DNA of 64,000 nt from Haematococcus lacustris (taxonomy: Eukaryota > Chlorophyta > Chlorophyceae > Chlamydomonadales > Haematococcaceae). Each line of letters starts with the position of its first letter. Positions within the stretch are counted from its first letter, which is position 1. The notes below the pieces were generated by a model, which saw nothing but the letters and a program-made list of their open reading frames with translations, was not told the DNA's origin and searched no databases. The translations under genes and the position numbers were made by a program. The stretch covers positions 8,274,100-8,338,099 of the forward strand of contig JASKMD010000026.1 in the NCBI GenBank assembly GCA_030144725.1, in the 5' to 3' direction. Positions 19,767-49,185 of the stretch are shown in pieces.

Positions 19767-20016
19767 TGTGCAAGCTCTCAAAACGGCGCAAGACAGCAGG
19801 CTGAACCTTGCCGTCCACAGACCCGGGAGCATTGTTGCCAGGCTGTCCCAAAGGTGCTGCGATAAGGAGGTGCTGCGACAAAACCCTGGCATGGGCTACA
19901 TGTTGCTGCAAGACTGCTTACACCAGGTTTAGCAGCGGCAGTAGCCTGTGGCACAGTAGTGTGTGCTAGGGGTTATCTTTGGGCTCCTACCAGCTTACGG
20001 ACCCACAGCCCCTACG

Positions 20017-20161
20017 CAGCAGCCAGGAAGTCACACAGCCTGCAGCCTCAGCGCCAGGGCCCAGCGCTCCCCCGCCAGCCAAGCGCAGCAAACGCACCAA
20101 GGTTGAGCCAGAGGCAGCTGAGCCCACCCAGCCCACCAAGGCTGCCAAGGCCAAGCCAGCA
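20017..20161 (+). pseudogene. Fragment of Fanzor-like ORF (NLS/linker part only)
   Basis: The segment encodes the Pro/Lys-rich linker shared with the other copies (PPPAKRSKRTK-type basic cluster followed by an Ala/Lys-rich stretch). It breaks off immediately before the conserved RWLDRD block. The sequence after 20161 is unrelated to that block, so this is a truncated, non-functional copy. Confidence 0.75.
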
Positions 20162-22370: not shown

Positions 22371-22679
22371 AATGCCTCAGAGCCAGGGCCCAGCACTCCC
22401 CCGCCAGCCAAGCGCAGCAAGCGCACCAAGGCTGAGGCAGAGGCAGCTGAGCTCACCCAGCCCACCAAGGCTGCAAAGGCCAAGCCAACACCACAGCCAG
22501 GCAGGTGGCTGGACAGGGACTGCAATGCAGCATTGAACATGCAGCGCATTGGGGAGAGCAGGTGGCGCCCGCTGGAGCTGTGCTACTGGTCAGAGCAGGG
22601 AGCTCTGCCAGCCAAGGGCAAGGAGTACCCAGGCCTGGGCTATAAGCGGCTACGAGACAAGCCACCCAAGGCCCAGTAG
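22371..22679 (+). pseudogene. Fanzor/TnpB-like nuclease C-terminal remnant
   Basis: The frame encodes the basic linker (PPPAKRSKRTKAEAEAAE), then GRWLDRDCNAALNMQRIGES, then a WRPLELCYW-type tail and a conserved Lys-rich C-terminus (YKRLRDKPPKAQ). The DRDxNAAxN block matches the RuvC-III motif of the IS605 OrfB/TnpB and eukaryotic Fanzor nucleases, where the second Asp is catalytic (family knowledge). A stop at 22677 truncates the tail by several residues compared with copies that read QQQPAVAQ or QQQPAEAQ. Nothing corresponding to RuvC-I or RuvC-II is present upstream, so this copy is not expected to encode an active enzyme. Confidence 0.72.
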
Positions 22680-22905
22680 CAGCCTGCTGAGGCATAGTAG
22701 CGTGTGCCCCCCACTCTGAGCTGTCATCAGCTCACAATCAGTGCATGATATTCAAGCCAACTCTACACAATAGCCCTCGTGGCCAGGCAATAGTGTAGGT
22801 GGTAGGCACTCATGCATGGCCATGTGAAATGGGTATACTCCACACAGCCCATTAACACCACTTGGGTCGGGCGACTATTGCCCACTTGTGGTCCCTGCTG
22901 GTCCG
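22680..22905 (+). ncRNA. Candidate guide-RNA scaffold downstream of Fanzor-like remnant
   Basis: This conserved non-coding block follows the stop. It holds a perfect hairpin at 22717-22734 (TGAGCTG, loop TCAT, CAGCTCA), then AATCAGTGCATG and GTGTAGGTGGTAGGC. The same order occurs at 35860-36066, and, with a different but still complementary stem, after the minus-strand copies. Known TnpB/Fanzor loci encode their omega-RNA here. Transcription is not shown, so this is inference. Confidence 0.45.
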
Positions 22906-23085
22906 GCTAGTGGCCACTAGTGGTGGACTACCAGGGAGCTAGTGGACTACAAGGGACTATCAGGGAGCTAGTGGTCCGGCTAGTGGATTACCAGGGAGCT
23001 AGTGCCACTAGTGACCACCAGTAGTGGACCACCAGTCCCTAGTATTGCCGCTAGTGCTCCCTGGTGGTCCGGCTCAAAGTAAGGC
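22905..23085. repeat. Clustered CTAGTGG/CCACTAG palindromic repeats
   Basis: Short inverted and direct copies of CTAGTGG, CCACTAG, GGACTACCAGGGAGC and GGTGGTCCGGCT are packed into about 180 bp. The block ends with CCCTGGTGGTCCGGCTC, which also ends the 36.06 kb copy. It is therefore probably an expanded right end of the same element. Confidence 0.7.
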
Positions 23086-27179: not shown

Positions 27180-27556
27180 AGTTTTAGCGCGCGCGAGTTA
27201 CCGCGATAGCCTTCGCTATCCTCCACTAGGGCGTGGTGCGATGCGCAGGCCTGGCACGGATTGGCATGGCCAATGGCCGGGGTGACCCTTGGCCTTGCCT
27301 TTGCCCTTGGTGGGCTCAGCTGCAAGCTCAGCCTTGGTGCGCTTGGCTGGCGGGGGAGTGCTGGGCCCTGGCTCTGAGGCTGCTGCCGGTGTGGCGGCCT
27401 GGCTGCTGCCTGGGGCCTGTGGGGGCTTGCGGGGGGCCACTGCTTTTCGAGTTTTAGCGCGCGTGAGTTACCGCGATAGCCTTCGCTACCCTCCACTAGG
27501 GCGTGATGCGAGCGGCAGGCCTTGCACGGATTGGCATGGCCAATGGCCGGGGTGAC
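27180..27556. repeat. 105-bp direct repeats flanking a nuclease fragment
   Basis: Two copies (about 27180-27287 and 27449-27556) of a block starting GTTTTAGCGCGCG and ending GGCCGGGGTGACC bracket 161 bp of Fanzor-like sequence. The copies differ at only a few positions. Confidence 0.88.
27288..27448 (-). pseudogene. Fanzor-like linker fragment
   Basis: The minus strand encodes VAPRKPPQAPGSSQAAT, then SEPGPSTPPPAKRTKAEL and a Lys/Gly-rich run. This is the linker between the WCP and RWLDRD blocks of the 46 kb copy, with the basic cluster shortened. No RuvC motif is included, so this is a fragment. Confidence 0.75.
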
Positions 27557-27736
27557 CATGCCCACCCAAGGTTTCAAGTCCTCGTAGGAGGCAGAGGTAG
27601 TAGAACACATCATTCACATCAAGCCCATCACTAAGCCCATCACAAACATTCCTCAAATGACAGGCAGTCGTCTGGCGATGAGCGCATTATTCATTCTTCC
27701 CTCGAAAGCTTCACTGGTGGTGGCACAGGCTTGAGG
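27557..27736. repeat. Direct repeat, partner at 25839-26012
   Basis: This is the copy adjoining the deoxyhypusine synthase 3' end, 14 bp from its stop codon, and is probably the original of the pair. Confidence 0.9.
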
Positions 27737-27749
27737 TGTTCATGGAGGA

Positions 27750-30700
27750 TCACATGGCGGCCGGCGATGCTGGCTTTGGCTCCCAATGCTTTGCAAACGT
27801 CTGGCTGATGATAAGGGGCAGCAGGATGGTCGCATCCCCATACACCTACAAAACACAGTGCATGCAAACAAGAACATCGCCGCAGGTCCCTTCACTCCAG
27901 CAGCCATGTCAGCGACAGCTGCATGACACCGACCTTCACTGGCTTGGCTTCTAGACGGATCTTCCCCCAGCTCACTGCCTCGTCAGGCCGTGCTCCACTG
28001 TCACTCCCGTCAAACTCCTGCACAGCAGCCAGCTCCTGCTAGATGCAAGCTCCAATGCACAGCCCTTACCCATCATGATCAAATCTTAGCTGCATAGCAT
28101 CTTCCCACTTTAGACTACGCTGTGGCGGCCATCAAGACCATAACCATGACATGGCAAATGTGACCGACACTAGGAGCATTGCCGGTCAGCTGAGATCAGG
28201 GAGCTAGTCAGGCATCTGCCTTACACAGGCACGGCTGAGTTGCAAATGCACGGTGCATTGCTGGGCACCAACCACCCATGGCAACCACCAAGAACAGCTT
28301 TGGGACATGGAAGTTGCTGACAAACGTCGATGCAGGGCAATGGTGCTGTGCTGTGCATGGCTGGGTTTTGTGTTAGGGGATGTGCGGGTGACAGAGCTGA
28401 CCTGTGCTGTGTTCACGTACACCGCAAAGTCAGCTCCGTTGCGCATCAGGTTTGCGTTGCAGATGTGATGCTTGGCCACACCGCCCCCCAACAGGATCAT
28501 GCCTGCGCAACACACAACACCCAATGCTCATGGCCTTTGTTGTGATGTAAGCAGCTGGGCTGTTTGCCAGGAACGCGAGGAAGGCTCAGGTCCAGCTGCC
28601 AGGGGGGATGCCTGAACAGGATGGCTGCTAGGAGTGCACTGCAGCCGAGGTTGGCTGTGTTGACCTCCACCCAGGCTCTGGGGCACACCAGGCTGGTGCT
28701 TACTAGGGTGGTGTAGGGTCGCCTGGCACGGGTGCGCACACCTGTCTTGTGCGGCGCTGCCTTCATGGCGATGTCGTTCATCAGCCGCACGTCCTCCACA
28801 ATGTCACACCTGCCAGCAAATGCCAGCAATGGCCTTTGTACGCCAGCTGATACAACACCCAAACATAGGACCTGTTGTATGACAATGCTTATGGGTTCCT
28901 CACTGTATGCCTCCAGGTTCCAGCAAGCAAGAGTGTTGAAGGCCGCTGCAATGCTCCTGCCTGAATGGGTGAAATGCTTGTCGAATGCTGCCGGGTCTGC
29001 AGCAATAGCTGTGTTTGTGTGGAGGAGGGAGAACCACCCATGTGAAAGACAGGCATGCAGGAGTTCATGCAGGAGTTCTTGCAGGTGAAGGCGTGCTGGA
29101 CTACTACCCCAAGCGCCCCCCTGTACCCCAGCGCGTGGTTCTACAGCCTCAGACACCACAACCAGGCCCCCCATCGACCCACCGCAGCCCCGGCCGCTTG
29201 TAGGAGTGGAAGAACAGCATGTCCCCGATGGAGCCGTCTGTGAGGGGCGGGCAGAACACCGGGATGTTGTTGCGCGCTGCCCAGTACAGCAATGACTCCT
29301 CATTGTTTATCTGCTGCCCGAATCGGTGCAGCATCTGCAGCGCGACCATCATAATCATGTGGTCCTGGTGGTGTCGCCTGGCGGTCCATACGCAGTGCTG
29401 ATCATCGTCAGCATCAACATCATCATCACAACCATCCCCACATCTCATGCACCAACGTGCGGTACAAGTGGATGGCGGTTGATATGCAGTTCTAGTGTGT
29501 GGGACAGCTGGGTGTGGGTAGGCATGCATCCTACCCTTGCACCTCTCCTCATACCCATACCCCCTGAACTTTACAGCCTAAAAGGATGGGTGGGCTGGCG
29601 CACAGCACCACAGGGCCTGCCACTGCAGCTTGCAATGGTGGCTTGAACATCAACGGCTGCTGGATGGACAGCGAGATGCTTGGAAACCCTTGTGCCCTGT
29701 GCCACCTGTGCCCTGGAGCCTTGAGCCCTGTGGAGTCTGCAGCCTGTGACAGCTGTGGCTTAGACCTGACCCAACAGCTTGCCACTTTGCAAGTGGTGGC
29801 AGGCACCTTGGAGGGCGTCCAGTTCGTCCCCTGCTGCTCCTGCTCGTCCAGCATGGTGTTCAAGATCGGCATCATCCAATCCTCAAACGCGCAGTAGTTG
29901 GAGTTGGGCACCAGCATGTTGCCGATGCGGTTCAGGCCCTGAGCCCGTAGCTCAGCACCTGGCCGCAGCGCAGCGCAGATTGGGGCTGAAAGTGTGATCA
30001 CATCAGCATCACACACCTGGCATGCGCCTACAGCTGAGATGGTCAGCCACCATGCCATGGTGTCTAGAATGTGCTTCCCACTGTGGTGGGGGTGGATGTC
30101 TTGTATATGGGGGGCTGTATGGGGTGGACTTGGGTCAGGGTAAGGGCTTGGGTCAGGGTTAAGGCTAGTGCTAGGGCTAGGGCTAGGGCTGAAGTTTCTG
30201 GTGTCTCAACGGATAGGGGTAAACCTGTTGTACCTTTCAGGTGGAAGTCACCCACATAGGTGTGTGCCAGGCACTTGATCAGGTCCTCCTCCACCCCCCC
30301 AGCAGTGGCCACCACAGCATCTACCATACGGTGCTGCAGGAGCCACCTGCAACACAGCAGCATGCAGCGCGGGACAATCCACACCCCATTGACATTGGCA
30401 TCCCACTGGCTTGCTGACACCTCAAGTGCTGGCTACTCACCCTGCTCAGCTGGGCATGGCCTGCACAGCATGCCCCACACAAGTGTGCCAACACACGCCT
30501 CCATGCTATCTGAAGCAATTACGACAGGAGGCGTAAGTGCTGAGGGCTAAGGGTTGCGGCGGCAGCAGTCAGGCAAATCAGGAGAGAGCGGATGCTGCTT
30601 AAGCCGCACCGGATGTGCTCCCTTGTACCAGCTGACCCCAGATTTGAGGTGAAGCCGAGGAAGATGATGGTCCGGCATTGGGACCGGAAGGCAGGGTCTT

Positions 30701-31153: not shown

Positions 31154-31373
31154 TGGGGGGTAGGGCCGGCGGGCGCACGTGCACAAGGAGCCGCCAACAA
31201 CACACAAGTTGAACTTAGTCCGGGCTGGGACGGGTAATAGGCGATAGTTGCCTAGCTCGTGCTACAGTATCAGTACACAAACTAAGAAACAGCTAGACAG
31301 TAGTCCGGCAAGGAGTAACCCTCGCGGGTGACAGCCGACTACTGCGGGCTGCAAGTGAGGTGCTGGGACTAGG
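31154..31373. promoter_or_regulatory. Bidirectional promoter between DHS and NUP58
   Basis: Only 220 bp separate the two divergent start codons, so both promoters and 5'UTRs must fit here. No individual element was identified. Confidence 0.5.
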
Positions 31374-34300
31374 ATGGCATTCAGTTTCGCGCCCGCTACC
31401 AGTACACCCGCCTTCTCTTTTTCAAGTGCACCAGCGACGGGATCAACCGCATTCCCAGCATTTGGCGCAAGCCAGCCCGCCACTGCAAGTGCATTTGGAA
31501 CGCCAGCCCAGCCTGCAGCTCAACCTCTGTTTGGTACAACCACAACTCCTGCCCCTGCTGCCAGCAACACTCTAGCGTTGTGGGGAGCACAGCCGCAACA
31601 GCAGCTGCAGCAGCAGCAGCAGCAACAGGCAACACCTCTGCTCTACAGCTCCAAGTTTGATGACTTACCTGCCAACATTCAAAAAGAGTTGCAAGACATC
31701 CAGTAAGTGTACATAACAGCATGTGCACCTGTGTATTCATTGCATTGATGACCATGTTTGTAACGGCATGCAGGCAAGAAATCAGTAGATATACATCAGA
31801 CTGTGACAAGCTGGATCATGAGCCACTGCTGCGTGATAAAGATGCACTGAGAAAGGTGTGGCAGGTGCACACGCATGCAACAAACAATATCAATGTAGAG
31901 TACATCCCCAGTACATGTGACAGCAGCGGTGCGGGGAAGAGGATGCCAAGAAGTGTAGAAGAGCAGAGACATGTGATCTATCAAATGCTTACATGGAGTT
32001 TGCACAAATGCATCCGCTGCTTCAAAGCTCTCTACTGTGAAGCAGCTCGCACCATGTGGCATGTGCTCATGTTGCCAACTCATCAACAGCTGTCCTGGCT
32101 TGCACGCTCATGTATGCTTGCAGCTGGCCGACCCGCCTGCCATCGCCCTGCAGCAAGGGCTACAGGGGCTGGTGGAGGCCAGCAGGTCAGAGGACGACGC
32201 GCTGACCTACTTCAGAGAGGTAACACAGTTTGAGCTTGCAGACCTGCTCGATGTAGGGCCAGGCAGCGTGGGTAGGAAAGCAGCATGAGCTGGTCACTGC
32301 ATGGTGTGGACTTCCCAACCACCTGTCAGCCACCACCTGGTGCTGGTGAGCAACAGGACACCGTGCCCTCCCATAAGCAGCAGGATCCCATGGCCTCATG
32401 GTTAGCAGTCCTCAGCAATGGCTGGTGGGCTGCAGGGTGCAGCAGGCAGGATGGGAGGATGAGGGTGCCACTGTGCAGCTGATCAACACCTCCAGCGCTG
32501 CCTGCTGCCTGTCTTGTAGAAAGTGGTTGGGCTGCTGCACAGCACGGAGCGGGCGGTGCGTACCTTCCAGCGTTCCAAGCTATGGCGGGACGTGCCCACC
32601 CAGTATCGAGGTATGGGGGTGCTGCAGCTCAAAAGCTTACAGATACAGCACACATAGACACACACAGCCCCTTGGCTGCAGGATGTACTTGCACACACAC
32701 AGTGCACACAGTGTGAAGGCAATGCAGTGCAGCAGCAGATGAGCTGAGTAGGTGGTAGGCCTGCGGCGCAACTCCTGTGCACAGCCCCTGTTCTGGGCCC
32801 TTCCATGCCCTTGGTGTGGCGGTTCACGTGCACAGATGACATCCCCTGTTGTTGTGAGGTGACTCATGTTTGCAGTGAACTGCTTGTTGCATACACTCGT
32901 TCCCAGAGGCCACTAGCAGCACCCTGGTTCCAGCCCATGCTTCACAGCGCTGCCCTTTAGGTGGCCCAGCTTGGTGATAAGGTAGCTGTGGCAGGCAGGT
33001 GTCCAAGCATTGCATCATGCTCTGAGCTGGGAGTTTAATGCTTGGGTTAGGGTTAGCCCCTCAGCCACTTGCCTACTGCTGCTGCTACTGCTGATGCTGC
33101 TGCTGCCCTTGTGGTCAGGCCAGCAAATACCACCTCAAGTGCAGGAGATGCTGTCCGCCCCAGTGCAGCTGCCCTCAGCCTTCCTGGAGGCCGCGGTGCA
33201 GGGCTTTGCTGAGACGCTCACAACCTACAGGTGCTGCCTGCACCTCCTTCTGCACCTCCTTACGCAGCCAGGGTTGGGCCTGATTTCTGATTAGGATCAG
33301 ATAACATGCGAGGCTGGTGTGACTCTCACAGCAAGCAGACAGGCAGGCAGGCTGGTGGGCAAGCAGGGTATGAGAATGTCCAGGTGTTGGAAGGGTGGGT
33401 CTTTGGGCACATGGGCTGGCAGCATTGACTTGGACAACTTGAACATCACTGTGGACTGTTTAGAGCAGGGCACATCACACCAGTGCGCCCTCGCCCCCTC
33501 ACAGGCAAAAGGTGGGCGAGCTGGAGGCCATGCTGCTGCCGGGAGCGGCGCAGGCGCAGCTGGGTGGTGCAGGAGGCGAGGTTGGGGTGGTGCAGGCACT
33601 GCCCACCATCGTCTCCCACCTGCACGACTACTTTGTGCATGTGGCTGCCCAGCTGGAGCAGCTGCATGGCCAGGTGACTGACCCCTAGACCCCTGACCAC
33701 TGGTTGCAAGCACATGGGTTGCAAGCATGGTAGTGTAACAAAGTAGTAGTCGCAGTTGCATGGTGTGGTGGTTGGGCTCCAAGTGCTTGGACAGCACCCT
33801 CCACCCACGAGCCTGCTGTCAGTGCATAGCCCATGGCCATAACTCCATCACCCTCCCTATCCCTGGCTAGCTCCAGGTGTAGTCTGACTATGTTGCTGAA
33901 GCAGGGCCGAGACCAAGTACACCTTCCCCTATGACCTGCCCACCTGCCCTGCATACACATGCGGCTGACGGCTTGAATGCTGTAAACCTGACCATGGTAT
34001 GTGGGATCAGCTGGCACCAGGAATGGAATGGACCCTCCCATCCCAGCATTCAAGTAATCGAGCTGTTGAAGCAAGCCTCACATAGAGCTACCCTTGCTGC
34101 TTGCTGTTATCTGCACACTCTCCGAGTGTGAAGAGGGTTGGCTTATGGCAAGCCATGCCACTGTTTTGTGGACTGAAGGAAATTGCACGTGCTGCTCCTC
34201 GTGGGGTTTGCATGGACTATGCTGCAAATGGCAAGGCAGTGCGAAGGCTACTGCTACGGCTACATGCTGCACCTGGCAACTACTGTTCTGCGCCTCCCTA

Positions 34301-35499: not shown

Positions 35500-35859
35500 T
35501 AGTGGCACCACGCAAGCCCCCACGCAGCCACACAGCCTGCAGCCTCAGGGGCAGGGCCCAGCACTCCCCCGCCAGCCAAGCGGAGCAAGCGCACCAAGGT
35601 TGAGCCAGAGGCATCTGAGCCCACCAAGGCTGCCAAGGCCAAGCCAACACCACAGCCAGGCAGGTGGCTGGACAGGGACTGCAATGCAGCATTGAACATG
35701 CAGCGCATTGGGGAGAGCAGGTGGCGCCCGCTGGAGCTGTGCTACTGGCCAGAGCAGGGAGCTGTGCCAGCCAAGGGCAAGGAGTACCCTGGCCTGGGCT
35801 ACAAGCGGCTACGAGACAAGCCACCCAAGGCCCAGCAGCAGCCTGCTGAGGCACAGTAG
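35500..35859 (+). pseudogene. Fanzor/TnpB-like nuclease C-terminal remnant
   Basis: Homology starts at AGTGGCACCACGCAAGCC, the nucleotide equivalent of the VAPRKPP block in the 46 kb copy. It continues through the NLS-like PPPAKRSKRTKVE and Lys-rich linker, GRWLDRDCNAALNMQRIGES, the WRPLELCYWPEQ tail and YKRLRDKPPKAQQQPAEAQ, stopping at 35857-35859. The first part of the linker is in another frame than the end, so a frameshift has occurred. No upstream domain is present. It lies about 400 bp after the NUP58 stop. Confidence 0.75.
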
Positions 35860-36066
35860 CGTGTGCCCCCCACTCTGAGCTGTCATCAGCTCACAATCAG
35901 TGCATGATATTTAAGCCAACTCTAGGCAACAGTGTAGGTGGTAGGCATTCATGCACTATGTCCATGTGCAATGGGTGTACTCCACTGTGGAGTCTCCACA
36001 CAGCCCATTAACACCACTTGGGTCGGGCGACTATTGCCCACTAGTGGTCCCTGGTGGTCCGGCTCG
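35860..36066 (+). ncRNA. Candidate guide-RNA scaffold, second plus-strand copy
   Basis: The hairpin at 35876-35893 is identical to the one at 22717-22734. It is followed by AATCAGTGCATG, GTGTAGGTGGTAGGC and CACTTGGGTCGGGCG, ending at CCCTGGTGGTCCGGCTC. Conservation downstream of a broken ORF, beginning 16 nt after the stop, is the main evidence. Transcription is unproven. Confidence 0.45.
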
Positions 36067-37140: not shown

Positions 37141-37451
37141 GTCTCAGCAGCCCATGGATGATGAGCCCCACATGTGCATGATGCCTGATGTGTGCAGAAC
37201 AGGTCAGAGTCTCTAAGTTGTGCCTTCAGCGCATCAACGTCCTGCATGGTCACATGAGACTAGACATTAGGAGCCTGCTGCTCACCCGACGCCTGATGGT
37301 CCTGGTCACCAGCTTGCTTGCTAGGGCCAACAGAGCAATTTACCAGCACAGCTGGCACAGCTGGCACAGCCACTTCGCTATGTTGCACTTTGGCAATCTG
37401 CCAATCGTTCACCAGCTTGAAGCCCTACTTGCCAGGTTCTGACAGGCCTTC

Positions 37452-37491
37452 CAGCACCTTGGCCCTCAACCTTGAGCCTTCATTGCAGTCG
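37452..37491 (-). mobile_element. Solo 40-bp end of the Fanzor-like element
   Basis: It begins CAGCACCTTGGCC, like the ends at 38141, 41530 and 45772, but stops after CATTGCAGTCG. It is followed directly by GCAGCAGCTGGCGG, the sequence that flanks the other end of the 41.5-42.76 kb element. This looks like an almost complete internal deletion of an element. Confidence 0.7.
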
Positions 37492-37636
37492 CAGCAGCTG
37501 GCGGCCAGCACAGGACTGGTAAGGCAGGCATTGCCATTGGGTTAGCAGGCTCAGCCTACAGTCCGAGATGGAACATGGACAGCTACCGCACCACCAGGGT
37601 CAGCTCAACAGTGAATGCTATATGTCAGCACTTAGG
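37492..37636. repeat. Duplicated flank, partner at 42757-42906
   Basis: About 145 bp from GCAGCAGCTGGCGGCC through GTCAGCACTTAGGTCA recur nearly unchanged next to the 42.76 kb element end. Confidence 0.88.
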
Positions 37637-38140
37637 TCACACCTGGTAGGACAGGCCTTCCAGCACATTCTCAGGAAGCGCTGCACAGTCTTCCCCAATG
37701 GGCTGGAAGCTGAAGCATGGGTTGGTGTCCTAGTCCCATCACCTTTTCCATTGGGTTGGCTAGCGGGGGTGGCACTACGCATGGTGCCATGTGCACCAGG
37801 GGCATGTGCCTGCACCCAACCATCAGACCTGGGCTGACCGCCGTCCAGCCGCTGCTGGCATGCCACCTGGCCTTGATGCCCCTCCTTCCCTGATTGCCAG
37901 TACAGGCAAAGTGGGTGACAGACAACCACCAGCTGCTCCATCTCTACATAGGCTGCATGGGTACCGCATCCACTGTTGGTGACCCCCACTGGTCAAACCC
38001 AGGCCAGCTGCAGTCACACCACTTCACAGCCTCTGCTTCTTCACCTCCACTGCTGACACCCAGTCACTGGCCCTGCCCACCGCTTGAGTTATTTACACAT
38101 ACCTGCTGCATCTCTGCTGTGCGCTTCGTGGACCATCTCT

Positions 38141-38404
38141 CAGCACCTTGGCCCTCAACCTTGAGCCTTCATTGCAGTCGAACACACTAATTGTGAACCA
38201 CTACAAAACAGTGTTTTGTCTGTGTGGTGTTCCCATCGCATGGCATGCTCATGGCCTATACATGGCATACACATGGTCACGGTCGCCTACCACCTACAGC
38301 ATTGCCTGACCCCTGTGACAGGGCTACACCGTAGAGTTGGCATGACAAAACATGCACTGATTGGAAGCTGATAGCAGCTTCAAGTGGGGGGGGGGGCACA
38401 CACA
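38141..38404 (-). ncRNA. Candidate guide-RNA scaffold, minus-strand copy 1
   Basis: A conserved tail of about 260 bp follows the stop codon. The hairpin at 38364-38381 (GAAGCTG, loop CTAT, CAGCTTC on the minus strand) is followed by AATCAGTGCATG, GCCAACTCTA and TGTAGGTGGTAGGC, then an end specific to this subfamily. The stem differs from the plus-strand copies yet remains fully paired. Confidence 0.48.
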
Positions 38405-38857
38405 CTACTGTGCCACAGCAGGCTGCTGCTGCTGGGCCTTGGGTGGCTTGTCTCGCAGCCGCTTGTAGCCCAGGCCAGGGTACTCCTTGCCCTTGGCTGG
38501 CAGCTTCCCCTGCTCTGGCCAGTAGCACAGCTCCAGCGGGCGCCACTTGCTCTCCCCAATACGCTGCATGTTCAATGCTGCATTGCAGTCCCTGTCCAGC
38601 CACCTGCCTGGCTGTGGTGCTGGCTTGGCTTTGACAGCCTTGCCCTTGGCCTTGTTGGGCTCAGCTGCCGGCTCAGCCTTGGTGCGCTTGCTGCGCTTGG
38701 CTGGCAGGGGAGTGCTGGGCCCTGCCTCTGAGGCTGCTGCCTGTGTGGCTGCCTCGCGTTGTTTGCCTGGAGTCGTGATGTGACCTGCGCTGGCATGAAC
38801 AGCAGCGGTGTGAGCAGCGCGGAGCTCACTGGACTGCACAGTTGCAGCGGACCACAT
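38405..38857 (-). CDS. Fanzor/TnpB-like C-terminal ORF in non-autonomous element
   Basis: This 150-codon open frame encodes, after an element-specific start (WSAATVQSSELRAAHTAAVH), an Ala/Gly/Pro linker, a basic cluster PLPAKRSKRTKAEPAAE resembling a nuclear localisation signal, a Lys/Ala run, then GRWLDRDCNAALNMQRIGES and the conserved tail to QQQPAVAQ. Only the RuvC-III portion of the nuclease is present, so no cleavage activity is expected. The tail is extremely well conserved among copies. That suggests recent spread, or selection on the nucleotide sequence as part of the guide-RNA region, which overlaps the 3' end of the gene in known TnpB systems. No start codon is proven. Confidence 0.55.
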   Translation of the reverse strand: MWSAATVQSSELRAAHTAAVHASAGHITTPGKQREAATQAAASEAGPSTPLPAKRSKRTKAEPAAEPNKAKGKAVKAKPAPQPGRWLDRDCNAALNMQRIGESKWRPLELCYWPEQGKLPAKGKEYPGLGYKRLRDKPPKAQQQQPAVAQ

Positions 38858-39582
38858 TGCGACTACGACGAACCTCGTTTTCGCGGGCTTTCAATCGGAA
38901 GCGGCTCTTGCTCCGCGGCAATGGGCCGCTTCCTCGGAGGCATTGCGCCACTAGGCGCATATCTACTAACACCTGCTGATACCTATTAATACCCAGGAGG
39001 CGATGTCACTTAATCTCGCACTCCCAAAGGGCACTTCCAAAGGCCACCGCCAAGCACCTCCAGCACCTCAGAACAGTCCAGTACCTCAGAACAGTCCAGT
39101 GACTTGATGCAGCAGCGAGACGGGCAAGATCACAGCAGACCTAGCCAAGCGCCATCTCCTGCATGCAGGACCATCTCTCAGCTTCTATGTCGGACTTGGT
39201 GGCCGAGCTGCAGGAGGATGGCACAGGGACGTCCCTGGGTCACATGCCAGGTGGGAGGGCACACTGTAGGGCGCTAGCTCAGTACAAGCAATGTGCTTGG
39301 CCTTCAGCCCTGCGGTCTCCTGGGATTCCCTCTTGCAGTCGTGGGCCTGATTAGTTGGAACACAGCTTCAGCATGTTGGGCCCCCTTGCAGCAGACCTGA
39401 CCACATGCCACACGGCACCCCCATGGCACTCAGCAGCCTGGCTCGTGGCACACAACACTGGCAGCACTGAGGCAGCCCTAGGATGCCCTGTGTCCATGAC
39501 AGCGGCCCTGTGGCTGCGGGTACCTACCCCCTGCACTGTTGCTTGACCCCCAAGAGGGCGTCTAGCCAGTTTGGCGTCACAA

Positions 39583-39638: not shown

Positions 39639-39750
39639 GGCTGCTGCTGAGCCGTGGGTGGATGATTATGCAGCCGCCTGTAGCCCAGGCCTGGGTACTC
39701 CCTGCTCTTGGCTGGCAGGTTCAGCTGCTCTGACCACCACTAGCACATCA
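39639..39750 (-). pseudogene. Diverged Fanzor-like tail fragment
   Basis: The plus-strand text with GTGGATGATTATGCAGCCGC, CTGTAGCCCAGGCCTGGGTACTCC and CTTGGCTGGCAGGTTC aligns with the C-terminal coding end of the other minus-strand copies but carries many changes and a short deletion. It is an old fragment. Confidence 0.65.
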
Positions 39751-40358
39751 GGCATGAACATCAAGTGTCAACATCAACCATCTTCAAGCACTGAGTCAGC
39801 GCTGGACTGCAGGCTGTATGCTGAGATGGCTGGTCCACTTCCCAGCTACGCTGCCTGGCCCCTTGGAAGAGCTTTCAGCCATTTAGCATGACATGCTTCC
39901 AGGATAGGCCTGGGACATGAGCATGGCCCCCATGTTGTGTGTGCTGGCATACCAGGTGGCTTCTTTACACTGGCGCACAAGCTTGAGCACCTGTCTGCAT
40001 CTCTGCAAGTGGCCGAGGGGCACGGTGGAGCGCTGCGTCAATGTGCAAACCCTACACTGGGTGGTGAGCGGCCTTGCAGGGCCCACCCTCCCTCACCTGG
40101 GAGCCCTTTGCCACCTTACCTGCCACCTCCAATGTCGCCTCTGGCATCAAACTGGACGGGGCTAGGTATGCTTGCGGACTGCTGCTGCTGCTGCTGGTGC
40201 TGCTGCTGTACAAGCCAAGACCTTGATCAAGGCAGCACCACTGTGTCCCCGCACCACACTGGCAACTGCAGACTTTACCCAAGCAATGACAGCCACAGGG
40301 TGGAGCACACACCAAGCAAGCAAAACATCACCACCTCAGAAGCCGTCCCCCTCCTCCC

Positions 40359-40579
40359 CCCTCCCTCCCTCCCTCCCTCCCTCCCTCCCTCCCTCCCTCC
40401 CTCCCTCCCTCCCTCCCTCCCTCCCTCCCTCCCTCCCTCCCTCCCTCCCTCCCTCCCTCCCTCCCTCCCTCCCTCCCTCCCTCCCTCCCTCCCTCCCTCC
40501 CTCCCTCCCTCCCTCCCTCCCTCCCTCCCTCCCTCCCTCCCTCCCTCCCTCCCTCCCTCCCTCCCTCCCTCCCTCCCTC
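40359..40579. repeat. CCCT tetranucleotide microsatellite, about 55 units
   Basis: An uninterrupted CCCT (AGGG on the other strand) array of about 220 bp. The SLPP/GREG open frames through it are artefacts of the repeat. Confidence 0.98.
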
Positions 40580-40954
40580 ATCATTTGCAGGTCATTCCCA
40601 CTGTGCCAGCATCACTCATCTATAGGCACAGCAGCTGGTTCACTGTCCAGTTTTGCACCAATTGTGTACAGGGGATGGGTGGATGCCAAGCCCACCAGAA
40701 GCAACGCAGCCAGCCATCCCTGGTGCCGTCGCTCCCCCGACAAGTAAGGCTGACCACTGGCACTCAAGAGTTTCACAGACGATAACTGAACTGCATTAGA
40801 GAAAAACTGGTTGCTGGGCACTAGGGTGCTGAGCAGAAGCAGCAGCCTCTAGCACACTAGTGTGAACATTAGGCTCTATTCACACTGTTGCTTACGTGAG
40901 AGCATGTGTTTCATGCCAACGGTGTCCCACCCCACCTCCAGATTGGGCTGGGGC

Positions 40955-41481: not shown

Positions 41482-41529
41482 CAAACAAGTTGAGGCATCT
41501 GGGCAGACCTGCGCACCGTCACCATTACC

Positions 41530-41794
41530 CAGCACCTTGGCCCTCAACCTTGAGCCTTCATTGCAGTCGAACACACTAATTGTGAACCACTACAAAACAG
41601 TGTTTTGTCTGTGTGGTGTTCCCATCGCATGGCATGCTCATGGCCTATACATGGCATACACATGGTCATGGTCGCCTACCACCTACAGCATTGCCTGACC
41701 CCTGTGACAGGGCTACACAGTAGAGTTGGCATGACAAAACATGCACTGATTGGAAGCTGATAGCAGCTTCAAGTGGGGGGGGGGGGCACACACA
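41530..41794 (-). ncRNA. Candidate guide-RNA scaffold, minus-strand copy 2
   Basis: The conserved tail after the stop has its hairpin at 41753-41770 and the same AATCAGTGCATG and GGTGGTAGGC blocks as copy 1. The low-coordinate end is CAGCACCTTGG. Confidence 0.48.
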
Positions 41795-42052
41795 CTACTG
41801 TGCCACAGCAGGCTGCTGCTGCTGGGCCTTGGGTGGCTTGTCTCGCAGCCGCTTGTAGCCCAGGCCAGGGTACTCCTTGCCCTTGGCTGGCAGCTTCCCC
41901 TGCTCTGGCCACCAGCACAGCTCCAGCGGGCGCCACTTGCTCTCCCCAATACGCTGCATGTTCAGCGCTGCGTTACAGTCCCTGTCCAGCCACTGCTGGC
42001 TGGGCAGGGGCACGCAGGGGGAGTGGGGGTAGGGGTGCAGCATCCAGTGCAC
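41795..42052 (-). pseudogene. Fanzor-like tail with replaced 5' part
   Basis: The frame contains WLDRDCNAALNMQRIGES and the conserved tail to QQQPAVAQ, with CWWPEQ in place of CYWPEQ. Upstream sequence (PYPHSPCVPLPSQQ) is not homologous to the usual linker. An acceptor-like CAG directly precedes TGGCTGGACAGG, so the block may be used as a spliced exon, but no partner exon was found. Confidence 0.6.
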
Positions 42053-42756
42053 GGGGAGGCTGCACGGCTGGAGGTGTAGGGGCGCTGGGGTACCCCGGGG
42101 TGGAGTAGCCCACTAGGCATGTCAGGAAAATCCTGAGCACATACAGTGACGCGATGACGCGGAGCTGGCTGTGCACCCCAGCCCTCAGCTGGAAATGTGC
42201 CAGTAGCTTTCGCTTCGTCTTCTTGCAGCCGCGCAGCACGGCGCCACCCGGGACTTTGATGACCTGCAGGAAATTACGAGCAACACTTTGACAGGCCGGC
42301 ACACAAGGCGGGGACACAAATAGTGCGGGGACACATTGCGGGGGCATACAAGGCGGGGGTGCGTACCTGTCGGCGCTGGGTTTTCCATTCAGCCCTTCGC
42401 TCCTCGCGTTGTTTACCTGGAGGGGTGATATGACCTGCGCTGGCATGAACAGCAGCGGTGTGAGCAGCGCGGAGCTCACTGGACTGCACAGTTGCAGCGG
42501 ACCACACTGTGACTACGACGAACCTCGTTTTCGCGGGCTTTCAACCGGAAGCGGCTCTTGCTCCGCGGCAATGGGCCGCTTCCTCGGAGGCATTGCGCCA
42601 CTAGGCGCATATCTACTAACACCTGCTGATACCTATTAATACCCAGGAGGCGATGTCACTTAATCTCGCACTCCCAAAGGGCACTTCCAAAGGCCACCGC
42701 CAAGCACCTCCAGCACCTCAGAACAGTCCAGTACCTCAGAACAGTCCAGTGACTTG

Positions 42757-42906
42757 TTGCAGCAGCTGGCGGCCAGCACAGGACTGGTAAGGCAGGCATT
42801 GCCATTGGGTTAGCACGCTCAGCCTACAGTCCGAGATGGAACATGGACAGCTACCGCACCACCAGGGTCAGCTCAACAGTGAATGCTATATGTCAGCACC
42901 TAGGTC
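42757..42906. repeat. Duplicated flank, partner at 37492-37636
   Basis: Matches the 37.5 kb block and joins the 42.76 kb element end. Confidence 0.88.
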
Positions 42907-43265
42907 AACACCATTACCCAGTACCATTCACCTTCACCTGTCCTACACGTGTGTCTTACAATGCACTGCTTGTTGCTTAGCCTACCATTACTCAATCCAT
43001 TCTTTGCCAATCCTTGCCATGACCTTGGCATGTGTAACCCCCTGAGCAGTGTGTAGCTGTGTGTTGTGCTCAGCCTCAGTGACACCCCCACGCCTGACTA
43101 GGCAGCGCGCCCTACTGGCTTGCAGCACCCGCCCTCCCAGTTGGCCCAGGCCCGTTTCTAAGTACCTTAGTGTTGCTGCGCCGCCAGGGTCAGTACAAGC
43201 TCTCAACTGTGCCTCCAGCATCCCACTCTGCCCTTCGCTGAACTGCATGGGCTGCGCCGCAGGTC

Positions 43266-45600
43266 TGGTCCAGGCCCCACACCTTGTGACCAGCGCCTGG
43301 CAGCAGTGGCAGCCACCCTTACCCACCTCCGGCACCAGCTCCCCCGGGCTCCCTTGCACCCTGCTTCCCCAGGACTCCCAGCCTCACTGCCCATCAACAG
43401 CCTGTCTAGCCCCTGACGCCAGTGCTGTGTGCGGCAAGCGGCGCCGTGAGCAGCATGCACCCCCCATCTCTCAAGACTGCATAGAGCGCCCACGGAGCTC
43501 CAGCGGGCTGAGCAACACCAGCAAGGTCAGCAACATACCTATAATCAAGCTTTGCCACACACCTGTTTCTTCATGTCATGTAGGGTCCTGCTTGGTGCTC
43601 TTGGCATGCCCAGCTCTGCCACATGAGCCAGCTCTGCCACCCTTGCTGCGATGGCACTCAGCATGGCCAGCATCAGCAAACTTGGCGGCGTTGACGTGCT
43701 GGGAAGGCTAGCAGGGGGGTTGGGCAAGCAGAGTAAAGGGCGTCTGGCTATGCACGTGCATCAGGCTGCTGGGGTTGTAGGGGGCCCTACCAACAACCCC
43801 TCAAGCACAGATGTGCAATGGCTTTGGGGCAACACCACACCAGGGGCGCAGGCATGCAGGGCAGCAGATGCACATGCTGATTAAGCTGTCACGACATGTC
43901 ACATGCTGATTAGGCTGTGCTGTCACGGTTGCAGGAGACAGACATGCAGCATGCTGCAGACCCACACCTCAGCGCCCTGTGCGCAGAGCAGGCACAGCTC
44001 ATCAAGAGGCTGCAAGACGAGAAGCAGCTGCTTGTGTCACACTCCATGGTGAGCCCATGCTGCCCATGCAGCGCATGCCCGGATTTATGCCGCCAACTGT
44101 GCACAATTGAGTGCCATGCCTGTGCCGATCGTCAGTTACCATAGGACACCACAATTGCTCACATGTCACCTTTTCCATCACTTTAGTTTTCACTCTTTAT
44201 TCCGTTCTCACTCTACACAGTCCGTGCCTGGCCAGCCAGCATGAAGGGCAAGCCAGAGCAGGTGATCGCCTAGCCAGTTTGGACGAAGTGCCATGCCGCA
44301 TGTCAGCACCTAGGTCACACCTGGTCACACCTAGTCAGTGCGCTGCCAGCATGCACAATCCGCGCCCCACTGTCCTGCAAGCTTGTGAAAGCAGGTGGCT
44401 GTGAAGCCTCATATTTGTGCATTGAACCAGAACTTCTCATTGACCCTAGGGCTGGTGAGCTCAGCCAGCTCTTGGGGAGGGAGATGCACATGGCCCTGTT
44501 TCAGTGGCCACGCGCGCCTGCAGTCCTCACTGCCTCTCCTGTAGGGACTCTACGGCTGTCTCTGCAGGCTTCAAGCAGGTTAAGAGGGGTATGTGGCGCC
44601 CTGTGGGCTCAGGGTGGTGGCACCGGGCATGGTGCCATGTGCACCAGGGGTGTGTGCCTGCACCTGCCCTAGTATAGCCCAACCCTCTGGCCTAGGGTGA
44701 CCGCTGACATCAATGACTGCTCTGCCATTCATGTTCATTTCTGCAGGCCCTCTCCGCTCGCCTTGCTGCCCTGGAGGGCCCTGCGGCCTGCACTGGCACT
44801 GGGTACCCTGCGCCCTCCGGCTCCCTGGCCATGTGCGCCCCTGCCTGGCAAGCCACCCCTAGCACCGCCTCCCAGCACCCCTGCACTGGCCTGTACCCTC
44901 CGCATCCTGTGCCACCAGCTCCCGCAGCAGTCCAAGCGCCGGCACCAGCGGCACGCCTGCGTCTCCACCACTGCCTGGAGACTGGCATGTGCAATGGCAC
45001 CAGCCCGCCCGCTCCAAACACGCCGGCATGCATCAGCCCGTGCCCCACGCCAGCCCCACACGCTCCTGCCACTGCAACCGCTGGATGCATGCTAGGTCAG
45101 TCAGCAGGTCGCCTCCTGCTGCCTGACTGTCCTGACACCTTGGATGTCAACTGCAGCCGTCACATGCTTGCATGCAAGCATTGCATATAGCCACACGAAG
45201 TCACAACTGGTGTCTGACATGCTGCTTTCTCCCCGCTCAGGGCTCTTCTCATGCCGGTGCAGGGGCATCAACCTCAGGGGCGCTGCATGCTAGCCATGCA
45301 GCTGCTCCTGGCCCGGCCTACACTGGCTTGGAGTGGCCCCAGCTGCGCACACAACAGCTGGCGTCTGGGATGTGCGGGACATTGCCAGCAGCCCTGCAGC
45401 AGTCCGCACCAGCCCTCCTGCACCAGGCACCCGCCCCAGACCCGCACACAGCAGTGTCACACCAGGCCAGGGTGGCCATGCAGCACGCCCATGTGGTGGG
45501 CCCCATGCCACAAGACGGCCTAATGGCGCAGCTGGCAGCACAGATGGAGGTGGCTCGGGCTGCCCTGCAGCACCTTCGCTGCACTCGGAGCCAAGAGTGA
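43266..45600 (+). CDS. Probable coiled-coil, Pro/Ala-rich nuclear protein (partial model)
   Basis: Four exons agree in phase: one ending at 43525 (start uncertain, about 43266), then 43935-44048, 44747-45095 and 45263-45600. The first contains a basic GKRRREQHAPP segment (nuclear-signal-like) and SSSGLSNTSK. The second is a clear coiled coil (LSALCAEQAQLIKRLQDEKQ). The third starts ALSARLAALEG and becomes Pro/Ala/Cys-rich. The last is Ala/Gln-rich and ends MAQLAAQMEVARAALQHLRC. The acceptor at 45262 was chosen because the nearer AG at 45240 breaks the frame. In the first exon a competing frame also looks helical, so its reading is unsure. The 5' end is unresolved. The Fanzor-like element end lies only 172 bp after the stop. 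Function is unknown. Confidence 0.48.
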
Positions 45601-45771
45601 CTGGCAATGGCGCCAAAGTGGGTGAGGCAGCTGTCAGGCAGGGATGTGCAGACATACAAGTACAATGGATCACTCATGGGCACTGCTGAGGTGCTCAGAA
45701 ACCAACACTTCCTCCCACGCACGCACAGTTGAGCTGACACAAGTGGTGTGGAAGTCATCTACAAGCCAAGT

Positions 45772-46036
45772 CAGCACCTTGGCCTTCAACCTTGAGCCTT
45801 CATTGCAGTCGAACACACTAATTGTGAACCACTACAAAACAGTGTTTTTGTCTGTGTGGTGTTCCCATCGCATGGCATGCTCATGGCCTATACATGGCAT
45901 ACACATGGTCATGGTCGCCTACCACCTACAGCATTGCCTGACCCCTGTGACAGGGCTACACCGTAGAGTTGGCATGACAAAACATGCACTGATTGGAAGC
46001 TGATAGCAGCTTCAAGTGGGGGGGGGGGCACACACA
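45772..46036 (-). ncRNA. Candidate guide-RNA scaffold, minus-strand copy 3
   Basis: The tail downstream of the longest ORF has its hairpin at 45996-46013 and the same conserved blocks and end as the copies at 38.1 and 41.5 kb. It is the best place to look for a transcribed omega-RNA, because it sits with the most complete protein. Confidence 0.5.
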
Positions 46037-47168
46037 CTACTGTGCCACAGCAGGCTGCTGCTGCTGGGCCTTGGGTGGCTTGTCTCGCAGCCGCTTGTAG
46101 CCCAGGCCAGGGTACTCCTTGCCCTTGGCTGGCAGCTTCCCCTGCTCTGGCCAGTAGCACAGCTCCAGCGGGCGCCACTTGCTCTCCCCAATACGCTGCA
46201 TGTTCAGCGCTGCGTTGTAGTCCCTGTCCAGCCACCTGCCTGGCTGTGGTGCTGGCTTGGCTTTGACAGCCTTGCCCTTGGCCTTGTTGGGCTCAGCTGC
46301 CGGCTCAGCCTTGGTACGCTTGCTGCGCTTGGCTGGAGGGGGAGTGCTGGGCCCAGGCTCTGAGGCTGCTGCCTGTGTGGCTGCCTGGCTGCTGCGTGGG
46401 GCCTGTGGGGGCTTGCGGGGGGCCACTACTGGGCACCACATCATGCCCCGCACTGGCTGGTCACGCTGCTGGCTCCAGGCTGGGCGCAGCAGGCGTGGTT
46501 CCACCTGCCCTGCTGGGGGCTTCCAGCCTGCACGCCTGGTGGCCCTGCGCTTGTTCAGCTGCCTCTCACAGGGCTGCTGGCCATTCACAGCTGAGCTGAC
46601 TCGGCTGGTGCGGTGCTCATTCACTAGCACCACCCTACCCCGCCGCTGGTCTGTCCCCCTGGGCCTGCACACCACCTTGCAGCAGGCCCGCAGCACTGCA
46701 CCAGCACCCCACCCACCCCCAGTGCCAATGGTAGCAGCGCCAAAGAAGACCACCAGCTGCTTGGCACGCCCATGGCGCTCCATGGACACCTCAGCCATGT
46801 CCTCCTCCAACTGCAGCCATGCACACAAGGCACACACATGGTGGCTGACATGGTGTTACAATGTTAGGCATGGCACAGTCAGCTACTCTTCCCACCACCC
46901 TCCCCCTCTCAAACAGTTAGGCATGGCACAATCAACTATTCATGCTCACTTCATACCAACCCACCACCTCCCAGTCCCTGACCCTTCCTCTCTCCTACCC
47001 ACCCTCACCTTCTTGAAGAACTGCTCCATTGTCCGGTCCTGAGCTCCGTACAGTCTCAGCCGCTGCTCTGCCCACTTGGGGTCCAGGTACACCTCCCACA
47101 CCGCATCCCAGGTGGCCAGGGTGACGGTGATGTGCTTCAGCTGCGGGTTTGTTTGAGTTGCAAGCCAC
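46037..47168 (-). CDS. Fanzor (eukaryotic TnpB-like) nuclease, C-terminal half
   Basis: Two in-phase exons (47168-47009 and 46810-46037; entry phase 2, junction phase 0) give about 310 codons. Exon 1 has TWDAVWEVYLDPKWAEQRLR and YGAQDRTMEQFFKK. Exon 2 has LEEDMAEVS, KQLVVFFGAATIGT, VLRACCKVVCRPRG, VVLVNEHRTSRVSSAVNGQQ, RGMMWCP, a basic PPPAKRSKRTKAE linker, and GRWLDRDYNAALNMQR. This order is that of TnpB/Fanzor: the Glu of NEHRTS is the RuvC-II candidate, a zinc-ribbon region follows, and DRDYNAA is RuvC-III. The zinc-ribbon Cys pairs look reduced to single Cys. RuvC-I is not found. Another possible exon lies about 47360-47530 but phases do not join. Such proteins are RNA-guided DNA nucleases; activity of this copy is doubtful. 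Confidence 0.68.
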
Positions 47169-47174
47169 CTGCAG

Positions 47175-49185
47175 GAGTCACATGGAGTATGAGTGGTGCA
47201 GATGGTCCTGGCCTTTCTCTTGCGTGCAAAGCTGCTCCATGCTGTAATGCATGCACTGATCGGCTATCCCCACAGACGCATCTAGTCCAGGCCTCCTCCC
47301 TGCCCTAACAAGGCAGCTTCAGCTAGAAGGGGGCATCCTGCTCTTGCCTCCAGCACCTGCACTTGTCTGTTCCCTTGCAGGTGCAGCAGACGCCGCCCTA
47401 CTCCAGTGCACAGCAGAGAGGTGTACTGGACTGGATCCATGAGCGAGTGGCGGTTTCCACCCTGTGACATGGGGAATGCCTCTGCTGTGCTGGAACCTGG
47501 CAAGAAGCTGGGCTGTCAGGTGACGTGTGAGGTGTGTGAGGGGAGCTTGCCTGGTGTGGGAGCCCAAGCCTGGCAGCTCTGCTGGCGTGCATGGCTTGCT
47601 GCCTGGGCCTGGCTGAATAGGCAGCTCCAAGTACTTGGTTTTTAGACCTGGTACTTGCTCAGATGACCCTAGTTTGCTATTGTCAGGAAGCGTTGAATTT
47701 AAAACGGAGTAGGGATGAACCATGCTGGAGTCTCGCAGCGAGTCCTGACCTCACTGGTGTGGGTGTTGAGAGTGGCTGCCTGTAGGTTGCAGCTCTACAG
47801 CGCACACACCAGAAGGGGACCCTGGTGCCGTCCTTGAAAGATGTGTTGCGCAGGGGGAATGCAGTAAGAAACAAATGGTTGGGCTGCAATGCGGCCTATG
47901 TCAGCCCTTGCCATGTGAGAGGGAGATGCTCTCCACACTGGCAAAACACCACCCCATCTCTAAAGGGACCTGGTTTCGCCTTTATGTTGGTATGTGTTGC
48001 CCACTGAGCTGGTGAGTGAGGTGCTGGTTTAGCCTTGGTCGTGTGCCACGTCAGATTGCAGTGGTGTCCGCAGCCAATGGGGCCAGGGCCGTGGCTCTTC
48101 TTAGTGAGGATGTTCCTCCACACCCTATCTGCAAGGGCACCATGCTGAAGAAATACGCGCATGGACAGGACCTGTAGCTTTGGCAAGCAGCCTTGCAGCA
48201 GCGAGACGGGCACGATCACAGCAGACCTAGCCAAGCGTCTAAGCATGAGACAACAGCTGCCAGTTCTCCAGTTGTGCATCCAAAGCAGTCATCCTACTGT
48301 TGGCCTGCATGGACGCCCAGTGGTCCCCCGTGATGTTGAGACTCATGGCTGGAGGGGCAGCTTCCCGGGCAGGGTTGAGGGAACATATGTTTTTGGTATG
48401 CACACCATGTATTTCACTTTGATGTCCAGTAAGGCGCACGCGCATCTGCATGCGTGTTTGGTATTCGAGCTGGGTCACCAAGCAAGAAGAGGGTGAAGGC
48501 TCATTGGGACACATGCCAGACTTTGCATGAATCTTTGCATGAGTCTTTGCATTCAAACCAGTGATGAAGCAAATTCATGCCAGAACTACATGTTGTTTGC
48601 CACATGCCACTGGTCTGAGCAGGTAGGATAACATGTTTGTTGGTAGCTGGTGATATGTTGCAGGAAGTCGCAATGACGCACTAGGGTCATGAATCAAGGG
48701 TGGTGGCCTGTCTATGCTCCTCTGGGGCTGCTCAGCTTAGCGTTGGGTGGGCTGGGCTGGGCATGGGGTTTGTAGCTGTCAAGGGTGCCCCGGATATGAA
48801 GTGGTAGAGGTGGAGGGAGAGTACCCACAGGCCCGCACCCTTACAGGAGATGTTTTACGTAGGAAGGAGTGGTATAATTGTCTGTGCTGCTGGACTGAGC
48901 ATCCGCTGTTGAGCTACGTAAAACCTTTTGAAGGGTTGCATGCAAGCATTGAGTTGGCTGATCCAGTCAACTAGCCCCAATGAACCAAACCGTCAGTAAA
49001 GCATCATCAATGCTGAAGTTGGCGGCCATCTTCGGAAAGGTTTGCATGAAGATTTTGCAAAGGAATTACGCAGGAACTCGCAGCGTAGCCTTCTGCCACG
49101 CCATACAGGTATGTTGTACATATCAGCCAGGAGCATCCAGGAGCATGTTGCAGCCAACAGCCTTTGCTAGCCAAAAGCCTCATTG
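47175..49185. other. Unresolved repeat-rich stretch before the gap
   Basis: Contents seen: a possible extra minus-strand nuclease exon (about 47360-47530); the dispersed repeat at 47785-48080; and a block at about 48190-48235 (GCAGCAGCGAGACGGGCA) that matches 39109-39155 beside another element end. There is also a 43-codon plus-strand frame at 48980-49108 ending at a GTATGT donor, whose neighbours fall in the gap. None is secure as a gene. Confidence 0.4.
47785..48080. repeat. Dispersed repeat, partner at 22128-22330
   Basis: It shares the ordered blocks listed for 22128-22330, and carries additional sequence before the TTAGCCTTGGTCGTGTG block. Confidence 0.65.

Follow-up and report, generated by a model that had tools for sequence, protein, structure and literature searches.

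We consider it quite probable that Haematococcus lacustris harbors thousands of copies of a non-autonomous element carrying a Fanzor1-like gene. On the best reading of the sequences, these would be a new variant, in the form of zinc-ribbon-less, greatly expanded Fanzor1-like elements. The directly observed features are RuvC motifs in the order DPG, shifted glutamate, and DRD, dN/dS ratios well below 1, introns, fixed 3′ and variable 5′ ends, short duplications, and the lack of a C4 ribbon.

The window, i.e., the whole 64,000-nucleotide stretch of DNA analyzed here (G000:C143:8274100-8338099), lies within a 308-Mb assembly of 597 contigs. A blastn comparison of positions 45500-47700 with the window recovered all eight loci, on both strands, that the first-pass annotation had listed (E <= 7e-11). 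A ninth relative, relic A, had been overlooked. The relatives and their flanking duplications are as follows.

20002-20164, plus strand: 20.0-kb linker fragment (blastn), rearranged with a tail fragment (19883-19965) that stands ahead of it
22374-22908, plus strand: 22.4-kb copy (blastn match 22374-22826), of the same subfamily as the 35.5-kb copy
27292-27444, minus strand: 27.3-kb internal fragment (blastn), between 108-bp direct repeats at 27180-27287 and 27450-27557
35504-36064, plus strand: 35.5-kb copy (blastn match 35504-35924), of a subfamily with a different 3′ end
37458-37649, minus strand: relic A (also placed at about 37452-37643), 5′-end and 3′-end sequences joined, without the coding blocks
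37441-37457 and 37650-37666: 17-bp duplication of relic A, with GTGCTG common to the element end
38145-39167, minus strand: copy B, internally deleted (blastn match 38140-38757)
38130-38144 (3′ copy) and 39168-39182 (5′ copy): 15-bp duplication of copy B, with GCTG common to the element end
39640-39736, minus strand: 39.6-kb tail fragment (blastn)
41533-42908, minus strand: copy C, internally deleted (blastn match 41530-42002)
41520-41532 (3′ copy) and 42909-42921 (5′ copy): 13-bp duplication of copy C, with CTG common to the element end
45772-47141, minus strand: copy D (the 46-kb copy), a 5′-truncated Fanzor-like gene with the fixed 3′ end

The shared block and the basic linker, reported earlier as whole or partial, are each present in five loci: the GRWLDRD(C/Y)NAALNMQRIGES-type block at 22.5, 35.7, 38.6, 42.0 (where it reads QQWLDRD), and 46.2 kb, and AKRSKRTK at 20.1, 22.4, 35.6, 38.7, and 46.3 kb. 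Three window copies are 97–98% identical to each other (blastn) and the duplications are intact at A, B, and C, in agreement with the proposed recent spread of the family. The 108-bp direct repeat that brackets the internal fragment (27180-27557, 93.5%) resembles a very long target duplication. Elsewhere, the window contains a tandem duplication at 1-8777 (step about 3.1 kb, 98.5% identity across 4.4 kb), two overlapping minus-strand ORFs at 29149-30205 that match deoxyhypusine synthase (PF01916, E 3e-16 and 1e-12) and belong to a multi-exon host gene, a plus-strand exon at 31359-31706 resembling an FG-repeat nucleoporin (PF13634 under the cut-off), and a long simple repeat at 40275-40600 that reads (SLPP)n.

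Copy D has the most informative layout in the window, with all of the following features on the minus strand.

47009-47141: remnant of the upstream exon, LKHITVTLATWDAVWEVYLDPKWAEQRLRLYGAQDRTMEQFFKK, with similar sequence in paralogues
46811-47008: 198-bp GT..AG intron, GTGAGGGTGG...ATGGCTGCAG, read also in L087
46040-46810: exon encoding RuvC-II, the degenerate ribbon region, the basic linker, RuvC-III, and the tail
46604-46633: VVLVNEHRTS, with the alternative RuvC-II glutamate (most often VVLVDEHRTS in the family)
46430-46450: RGMMWCP, aligned to where the lost zinc ribbon would have its third cysteine
46310-46333: AKRSKRTK basic linker
46202-46228: DRDYNAALN, RuvC-III
46037-46039: stop codon
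45772-46036: 3′ untranslated region to the element end, a candidate guide-RNA scaffold site
45772-45811: fixed 3′ terminus ending GGTGCTG

The two motifs noted previously in this copy, VVLVNEHRTS and RGMMWCP, were thus confirmed, and the suspected upstream exon is real, parted from the RuvC-II exon by the 198-bp intron. Copy D consists of one full exon and a piece of the preceding one. To judge from this sequence, it cannot itself be a nuclease, because RuvC-I is absent. Its 3′ end is that of A, B, and C with one base changed; no flanking duplication was found within 5 kb, and its 3′ untranslated region folds no more stably than shuffled sequences (z -0.30). The locus occurs threefold in contig C143 (L087, L088, L089) with identical flanks, and the region around it is therefore probably segmentally duplicated.

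How are the ends of the elements built? In the window, A, B, and C have the common 3′ end ...CTCAAGGTTGAGGGCCAAGGTGCTG, and each is bracketed by direct duplications (17, 15, and 13 bp), whose first 6, 4, and 3 bases (GTGCTG, GCTG, and CTG), respectively, are common with the element end. Across the genome, the fixed 3′ terminus is in place at 27 of 30 loci, and the similarity drops stepwise toward the 5′ side and stops sharply at the 3′ end, as had been anticipated from the 3′-preserving fragments in the window. The second subfamily ends with GGGACAAGGGGGCTG, found in 19 of 24 loci. Flank matches of at least 9 bases, counted wherever the upstream match lay relative to the 5′ limit of similarity, occur in 9/27 loci of the first subfamily, as compared to 12/702 mismatched pairs. 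In the second subfamily, they occur in 7/19 loci, as compared to 2/342 in the control. Since L087-L089 are three copies of the window locus, and L092/L093 and L091/L105 share flanks, the numbers of independent loci are lower; in addition, L131/L132 are duplicates, and L135 is doubtful, as its upstream match falls within another element end. When four loci were inspected over 10 kb, all three with the first-subfamily terminus had 16-bp duplications, shared bases included, enclosing elements of 4,166, 3,793, and 2,779 bp; this terminus is missing from the fourth, L121. The 4,166-bp copy (L118) contains a very long simple repeat in its coding region, reading (DP)n.

The accepted duplications span 10–19 bp with the shared bases counted (L091/L105 and L104 share none), and most of them start with GCTG, usually as TGCTG or GGCTG. 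The base before GCTG in the target is T in 9/11 cases for the first subfamily, which ends with TGCTG, and G in 4/4 cases for the second, which ends with GGCTG; this count takes duplicate loci once, includes L090 (8 flank bases), and leaves out C, L091/L105, L104, and L131/L132, whose targets are without GCTG, as well as the doubtful L135. The match between this base and the subfamily's own end hints that the element 3′ end pairs with the target. No T-rich tetranucleotide is common before the duplications.

The exact termini are abundant. In the 308-Mb assembly, 1,315 exact matches were counted for the first-subfamily terminus (26 bases) and 1,791 for that of the second subfamily (22 bases), with 0 for the reversed patterns; these numbers refer to ends, not genes. 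A third subfamily gave 256 matches. The published account of an H. lacustris assembly gives 30,575 genes, with transposable elements at 50.8% (PMC10400597), and the words Fanzor and TnpB are absent from its main text. We found no published account of the Haematococcus family in the open-licence literature on Fanzors and green algae.

The introns of the elements bear on how they move. Among the loci with both exon edges (54 read, 42 distinct), 49/49 have an intron-length insert and none is intronless. In 46/49 loci (39/42 distinct), the insert is an intron of the GT..AG type whose ends hardly vary; the other 3/49 give 72 nt, which arises from a loose acceptor match falling elsewhere. Moreover, read-through from exon A directly into the following exon, as expected of a spliced copy, is seen in none of 60 exon-A matches. 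Retrocopying of spliced mRNA by LINEs is thus disfavored, and we dropped it, because the introns are retained.

Target-primed reverse transcription by LINE- or Penelope-like machinery that recognizes the 3′ end, with the nuclease gene as a passenger, is a more serious alternative, and it is compatible with the Fanzor1-like identity of the protein. The variable 5′ truncation, the fixed 3′ end, the duplications of mostly 12–19 bp, and the frequent identity of the target start with the element 3′ end (TGCTG or GGCTG by subfamily) all agree with it. Against it stand the intron-length insert in every locus with both exon edges, the lack of spliced run-on, the absence of a poly(A) tail at the ends examined, and the absence of a reverse transcriptase family in one element. 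These observations only weaken the proposal, because Penelope-like elements can keep introns; we hold such a mode of spread to be possible, but less than an even prospect. The element concerned, 3,793 bp in length, has 17 ORFs of at least 100 aa with no Pfam match over the cut-off and no reverse transcriptase family; its ORFs gave one weak PF07282 match (15.3 bits) and two chance-level matches. Because of this lack of a Pfam match over the cut-off, the element probably moves in trans.

The 3′ end was also considered as a source of RNA. Elements of the second subfamily contain a 13-bp stem, whose end lies some 30 bases short of the terminus. With up to three changes allowed per arm, both arms were found in 17 loci, where they pair at 11–13 of the 13 positions, and both partners of a pair are changed in L122, L124, and L134. 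The stem could belong to an RNA scaffold, or could be no more than an end hairpin. All Rfam matches were under the gathering scores of their families, mostly to miRNA-like repeats.

Next, we analyzed the protein. The longer paralogues have the order GIDPG, a long stretch predicted with low confidence to be helical, the strand KQLVVFFG, VVLVDEHRTS, QPCE, GLMWCP, the basic linker, and GRWLDRDCNAALN. The TnpB/Fanzor-like RuvC motifs therefore stand in the right order, with the DPG of RuvC-I, missing from copy D, supplied by these paralogues. The genome-wide copy with RuvC-I that the first-pass annotation had called for was accordingly found: among 326 scanned proteins, DPG is present in 121 of the 125 in which the pattern located RuvC-I. 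In the alignment of 80 rows (A1), which like A2 (74 rows) was picked by hand out of the 326 proteins and 15 loci, the RuvC-I aspartate is present in 60/80 rows, with a gap there in nine, the alternative glutamate in 72/80, the threonine at +3 in 77/80, the RuvC-III aspartate in 80/80, and the arginine just before it in 78/80. In the reference row, 183 residues separate the RuvC-I aspartate from the alternative glutamate, and the threonine follows three further, inside the 125–275 residues of the Fanzor D-to-[TS][TS] spacing. The canonical glutamate position, judged by eye in the alignment, holds glycine, 41 residues before the alternative glutamate. Yoon et al. (2023; PMC10711439) told Fanzors from TnpBs by the RuvC-I DPG and by a RuvC-II glutamate shifted to six residues before the ribbon, and both marks are present in the Haematococcus family.

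The zinc ribbon itself is missing. The first-pass annotation had placed a zinc-ribbon region beside the linker, but there is no C4 ribbon between RuvC-II and RuvC-III, and CxxC follows the alternative glutamate in 0/326 proteins. The first ribbon cysteine position (E+7) is serine in 296/309 stretches and cysteine in one, as well as serine in 74/80 rows, and E+10 is valine, leucine, or methionine in 299/309 stretches. Two other cysteines are retained, that of QPC in 77/80 rows and that of WC in 74/80, and in the 15 third-type loci they are present in 15/15 and 13/15, respectively. In the main type, a basic, proline-rich linker of 50–60 aa lies ahead of RuvC-III. As KRSKRTK occurs in 122/236 main-type proteins, and KRSK in only 3/76 proteins holding just the second-type block, the linker would serve as a nuclear localization signal in part of the family at best.

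Is the coding capacity maintained? The protein search of the genome gave at least 142 places, all scored ones matching at 87% or more, of which 110 are stop-free (counted from the listing), and at least 60 loci were scored for the RuvC-I exon, 43/60 of them open. Within and between the two subfamilies, dN/dS is 0.17–0.40, a range biased low, because selecting the loci by protein similarity reduces dN. The window copies, chosen by DNA similarity, gave 0.17–0.44 between subfamilies. Within a subfamily, they gave 0.09, 0.14, 0.29, and 0.87, based on 57–65 codons with few changes, the value of 0.87 coming from the pair C–D with four changes. In some predicted Haematococcus proteins (P0161, P0165, P0234, P0256, and others), the element is joined to unrelated Pfam domains; such combinations probably reflect artefacts of gene modeling, or elements inserted in genes.

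Could the protein have ceased to be a nuclease? Nuclease-dead TnpB relatives regulate or help their elements, and a TnpB-derived protein with a decayed ribbon might likewise bind RNA or DNA in such a role, as the loss of the canonical ribbon pairs and the long basic, proline-rich linker of the main type would allow. However, the three catalytic acidic positions are retained in most copies, and dN/dS in the core is 0.18–0.40. Cas12a-like relatives, too, cut without a zinc ribbon. We therefore regard a non-nuclease as unlikely. At the other extreme, a ribbon-free Fanzor clade might use its nuclease for insertion itself. The 3′-end RNA, composed of the terminal part ending with GCTG and the flank, would pair with a target that starts with the same pentamer, the shifted-glutamate RuvC would cut, and the cut end would serve as the primer from which the unspliced element is copied, 3′ end first. 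Such a mechanism would explain why the subfamilies ending with TGCTG and GGCTG seem to insert at TGCTG and GGCTG, respectively, yet we judge it very improbable.

The relationship to TnpB was assessed with profiles and structures. The 46-kb product matches 1,215 database proteins at E <= 0.001, the best 120 of which are all from H. lacustris, in accordance with the alga presumed in the first-pass annotation; each of three protein searches gave Haematococcus proteins only among its best 120. The profile match above threshold that the first-pass annotation had demanded was not obtained with single sequences: PF07282 scored 16.4 bits on the window copy and at best 25.3 bits among the scanned proteins with bit scores, under the cut-off of 26.3 bits. 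At E values up to 0.1, PF07282 matched 28/80 members of one alignment (best E 0.0029) and 24/74 of the other (best E 0.0015). The precomputed Pfam column gives PF07282 for P0001, P0097, P0129, P0130, P0183, and P0221 among the matches listed, and at least two of these six carry tandem copies. No TnpB model matched in the NCBIfam search, and the PDB sequence search gave chance matches only, none better than E 0.6. Two AlphaFold models had mean pLDDT values of 48.3 and 47.4, too low to judge the RuvC fold and probably due to few diverse relatives; a Foldseek search with the first model is meaningless at such a pLDDT.

We then compared profiles with profiles. In this comparison, hhalign aligned the core of three subfamilies to a profile built from TnpBs and a single viral TnpB/Fanzor at a probability of 79.6% (P 1.5e-5), in register at the alternative glutamates, at WC and the third ribbon cysteine, and at the RD pairs, while the best of 30 block-shuffled controls reached 3.2%. 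The TnpB profile comprised 23 of 80 loci, InsQ, and 29 cyanobacterial TnpBs. The two-subfamily core gave 58.9% with the TnpBs plus the viral sequence. With the viral sequence removed, bacterial TnpBs aligned at the RuvC-III block alone (14–30%), and the viral sequence by itself gave 4.5–8.4%, about level with the best of 34 decoys (5.6%). The viral protein (L084:1340-2788, minus strand) is a TnpB/Fanzor with the alternative glutamate and a full C4 ribbon. It is among three loci found with a second cysteine-motif pattern on the viral contigs; a first pattern had given two loci, neither of them a Fanzor. When the family alignment was run against the viral contigs, no relative turned up, and the L084 protein, searched against the viral collection, matched its own locus only.

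Homology of the family to TnpB is thus likely, although unproven, because the support comes from the motif order and the profile comparison and is weaker without the one viral sequence. Membership in the Fanzors, as claimed in the first-pass annotation, is favored by the motifs and, once the viral sequence is included, by the profile–profile comparison, but not by single-sequence Pfam or by a C4 ribbon. That another RNase H-fold transposase or resolvase resembles TnpB in its DRDxNAAxN by chance, as the weak single-sequence scores and poor models might suggest, is very improbable, given three motifs in order with the Fanzor-type DPG and shifted glutamate, the in-register profile alignment, and the fact that no other family matches more members.

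The preferred reading, in which a non-autonomous element carries a Fanzor1-like gene, has a close parallel in CRe-1/2/3 of Chlamydomonas reinhardtii (PMC3627910), likewise non-autonomous elements with an intron-bearing Fanzor1 gene. Both systems show 5′ truncation, internal deletion, over-abundance of the 3′ part, short duplications, and extra bases at some 5′ ends, a pattern that Bao and Jurka (2013; PMC3627910) explained by one-ended Helitron2 transposition. The CRe elements insert after TTTT or T-rich tetranucleotides, whereas the Haematococcus targets are usually (T/G)GCTG; the CRe families have tens to 150 loci each, as compared to the 1,315 and 1,791 exact 3′ ends; and the C4 zinc finger, strictly conserved according to Bao and Jurka (PMC3627910), is absent from the Haematococcus family. 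The Fanzors SpuFz1 and GtFz1 (PMC10432273, PMC11423790) share with the family the DPG, the shifted glutamate (PMC10711439), and the RuvC-III acidic residue, but SpuFz1 retains a CCCC zinc finger (Saito et al. 2023, PMC10432273) that the family lacks. Fanzors are RNA-guided DNA-cutting enzymes, as the Haematococcus protein may be. The TnpBs of IS200/IS605 (InsQ and the cyanobacterial proteins) have the same DRDxNAAxN at RuvC-III and a TS motif ahead of the ribbon; the 29 cyanobacterial TnpBs, from 31 loci, possess the canonical glutamate and the C4 ribbon but lack the alternative glutamate, whereas Haematococcus has glycine at the canonical position and a glutamate 41 residues later. According to the Auxenochlorella paper (PMC12633428), green algal genomes contain diverse Fanzors of sporadic occurrence.

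Activity of the Fanzor1-like protein: the protein would fold as RuvC and pair with an RNA made from the element 3′ end. By analogy with TnpB and Fanzor, we infer that the unique flank beyond GCTG acts as the guide. The protein may then cut the matching empty site or a sister copy, whereupon the element would be copied or kept.

Movement of the element: transposition in trans would proceed by one-ended copying from the 3′ end, into sites usually beginning with (T/G)GCTG.

If this reading is correct, few natural collections of Fanzor-like nucleases might be larger than that of this alga, as judged from a single genome. With its ribbon-less proteins, the need for the ribbon in RNA-guided cutting could be tested directly, and guides and target motifs could be read from the exact ends, which run into the thousands, together with the flanks next to them. 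About a thousand annotated Haematococcus “hypothetical proteins” would then probably be transposon genes (1,215 matches, the best 120 by name), some of these models also carrying host domains. If the Fanzor1-like identity holds, the system could help show what Fanzors do for their elements.
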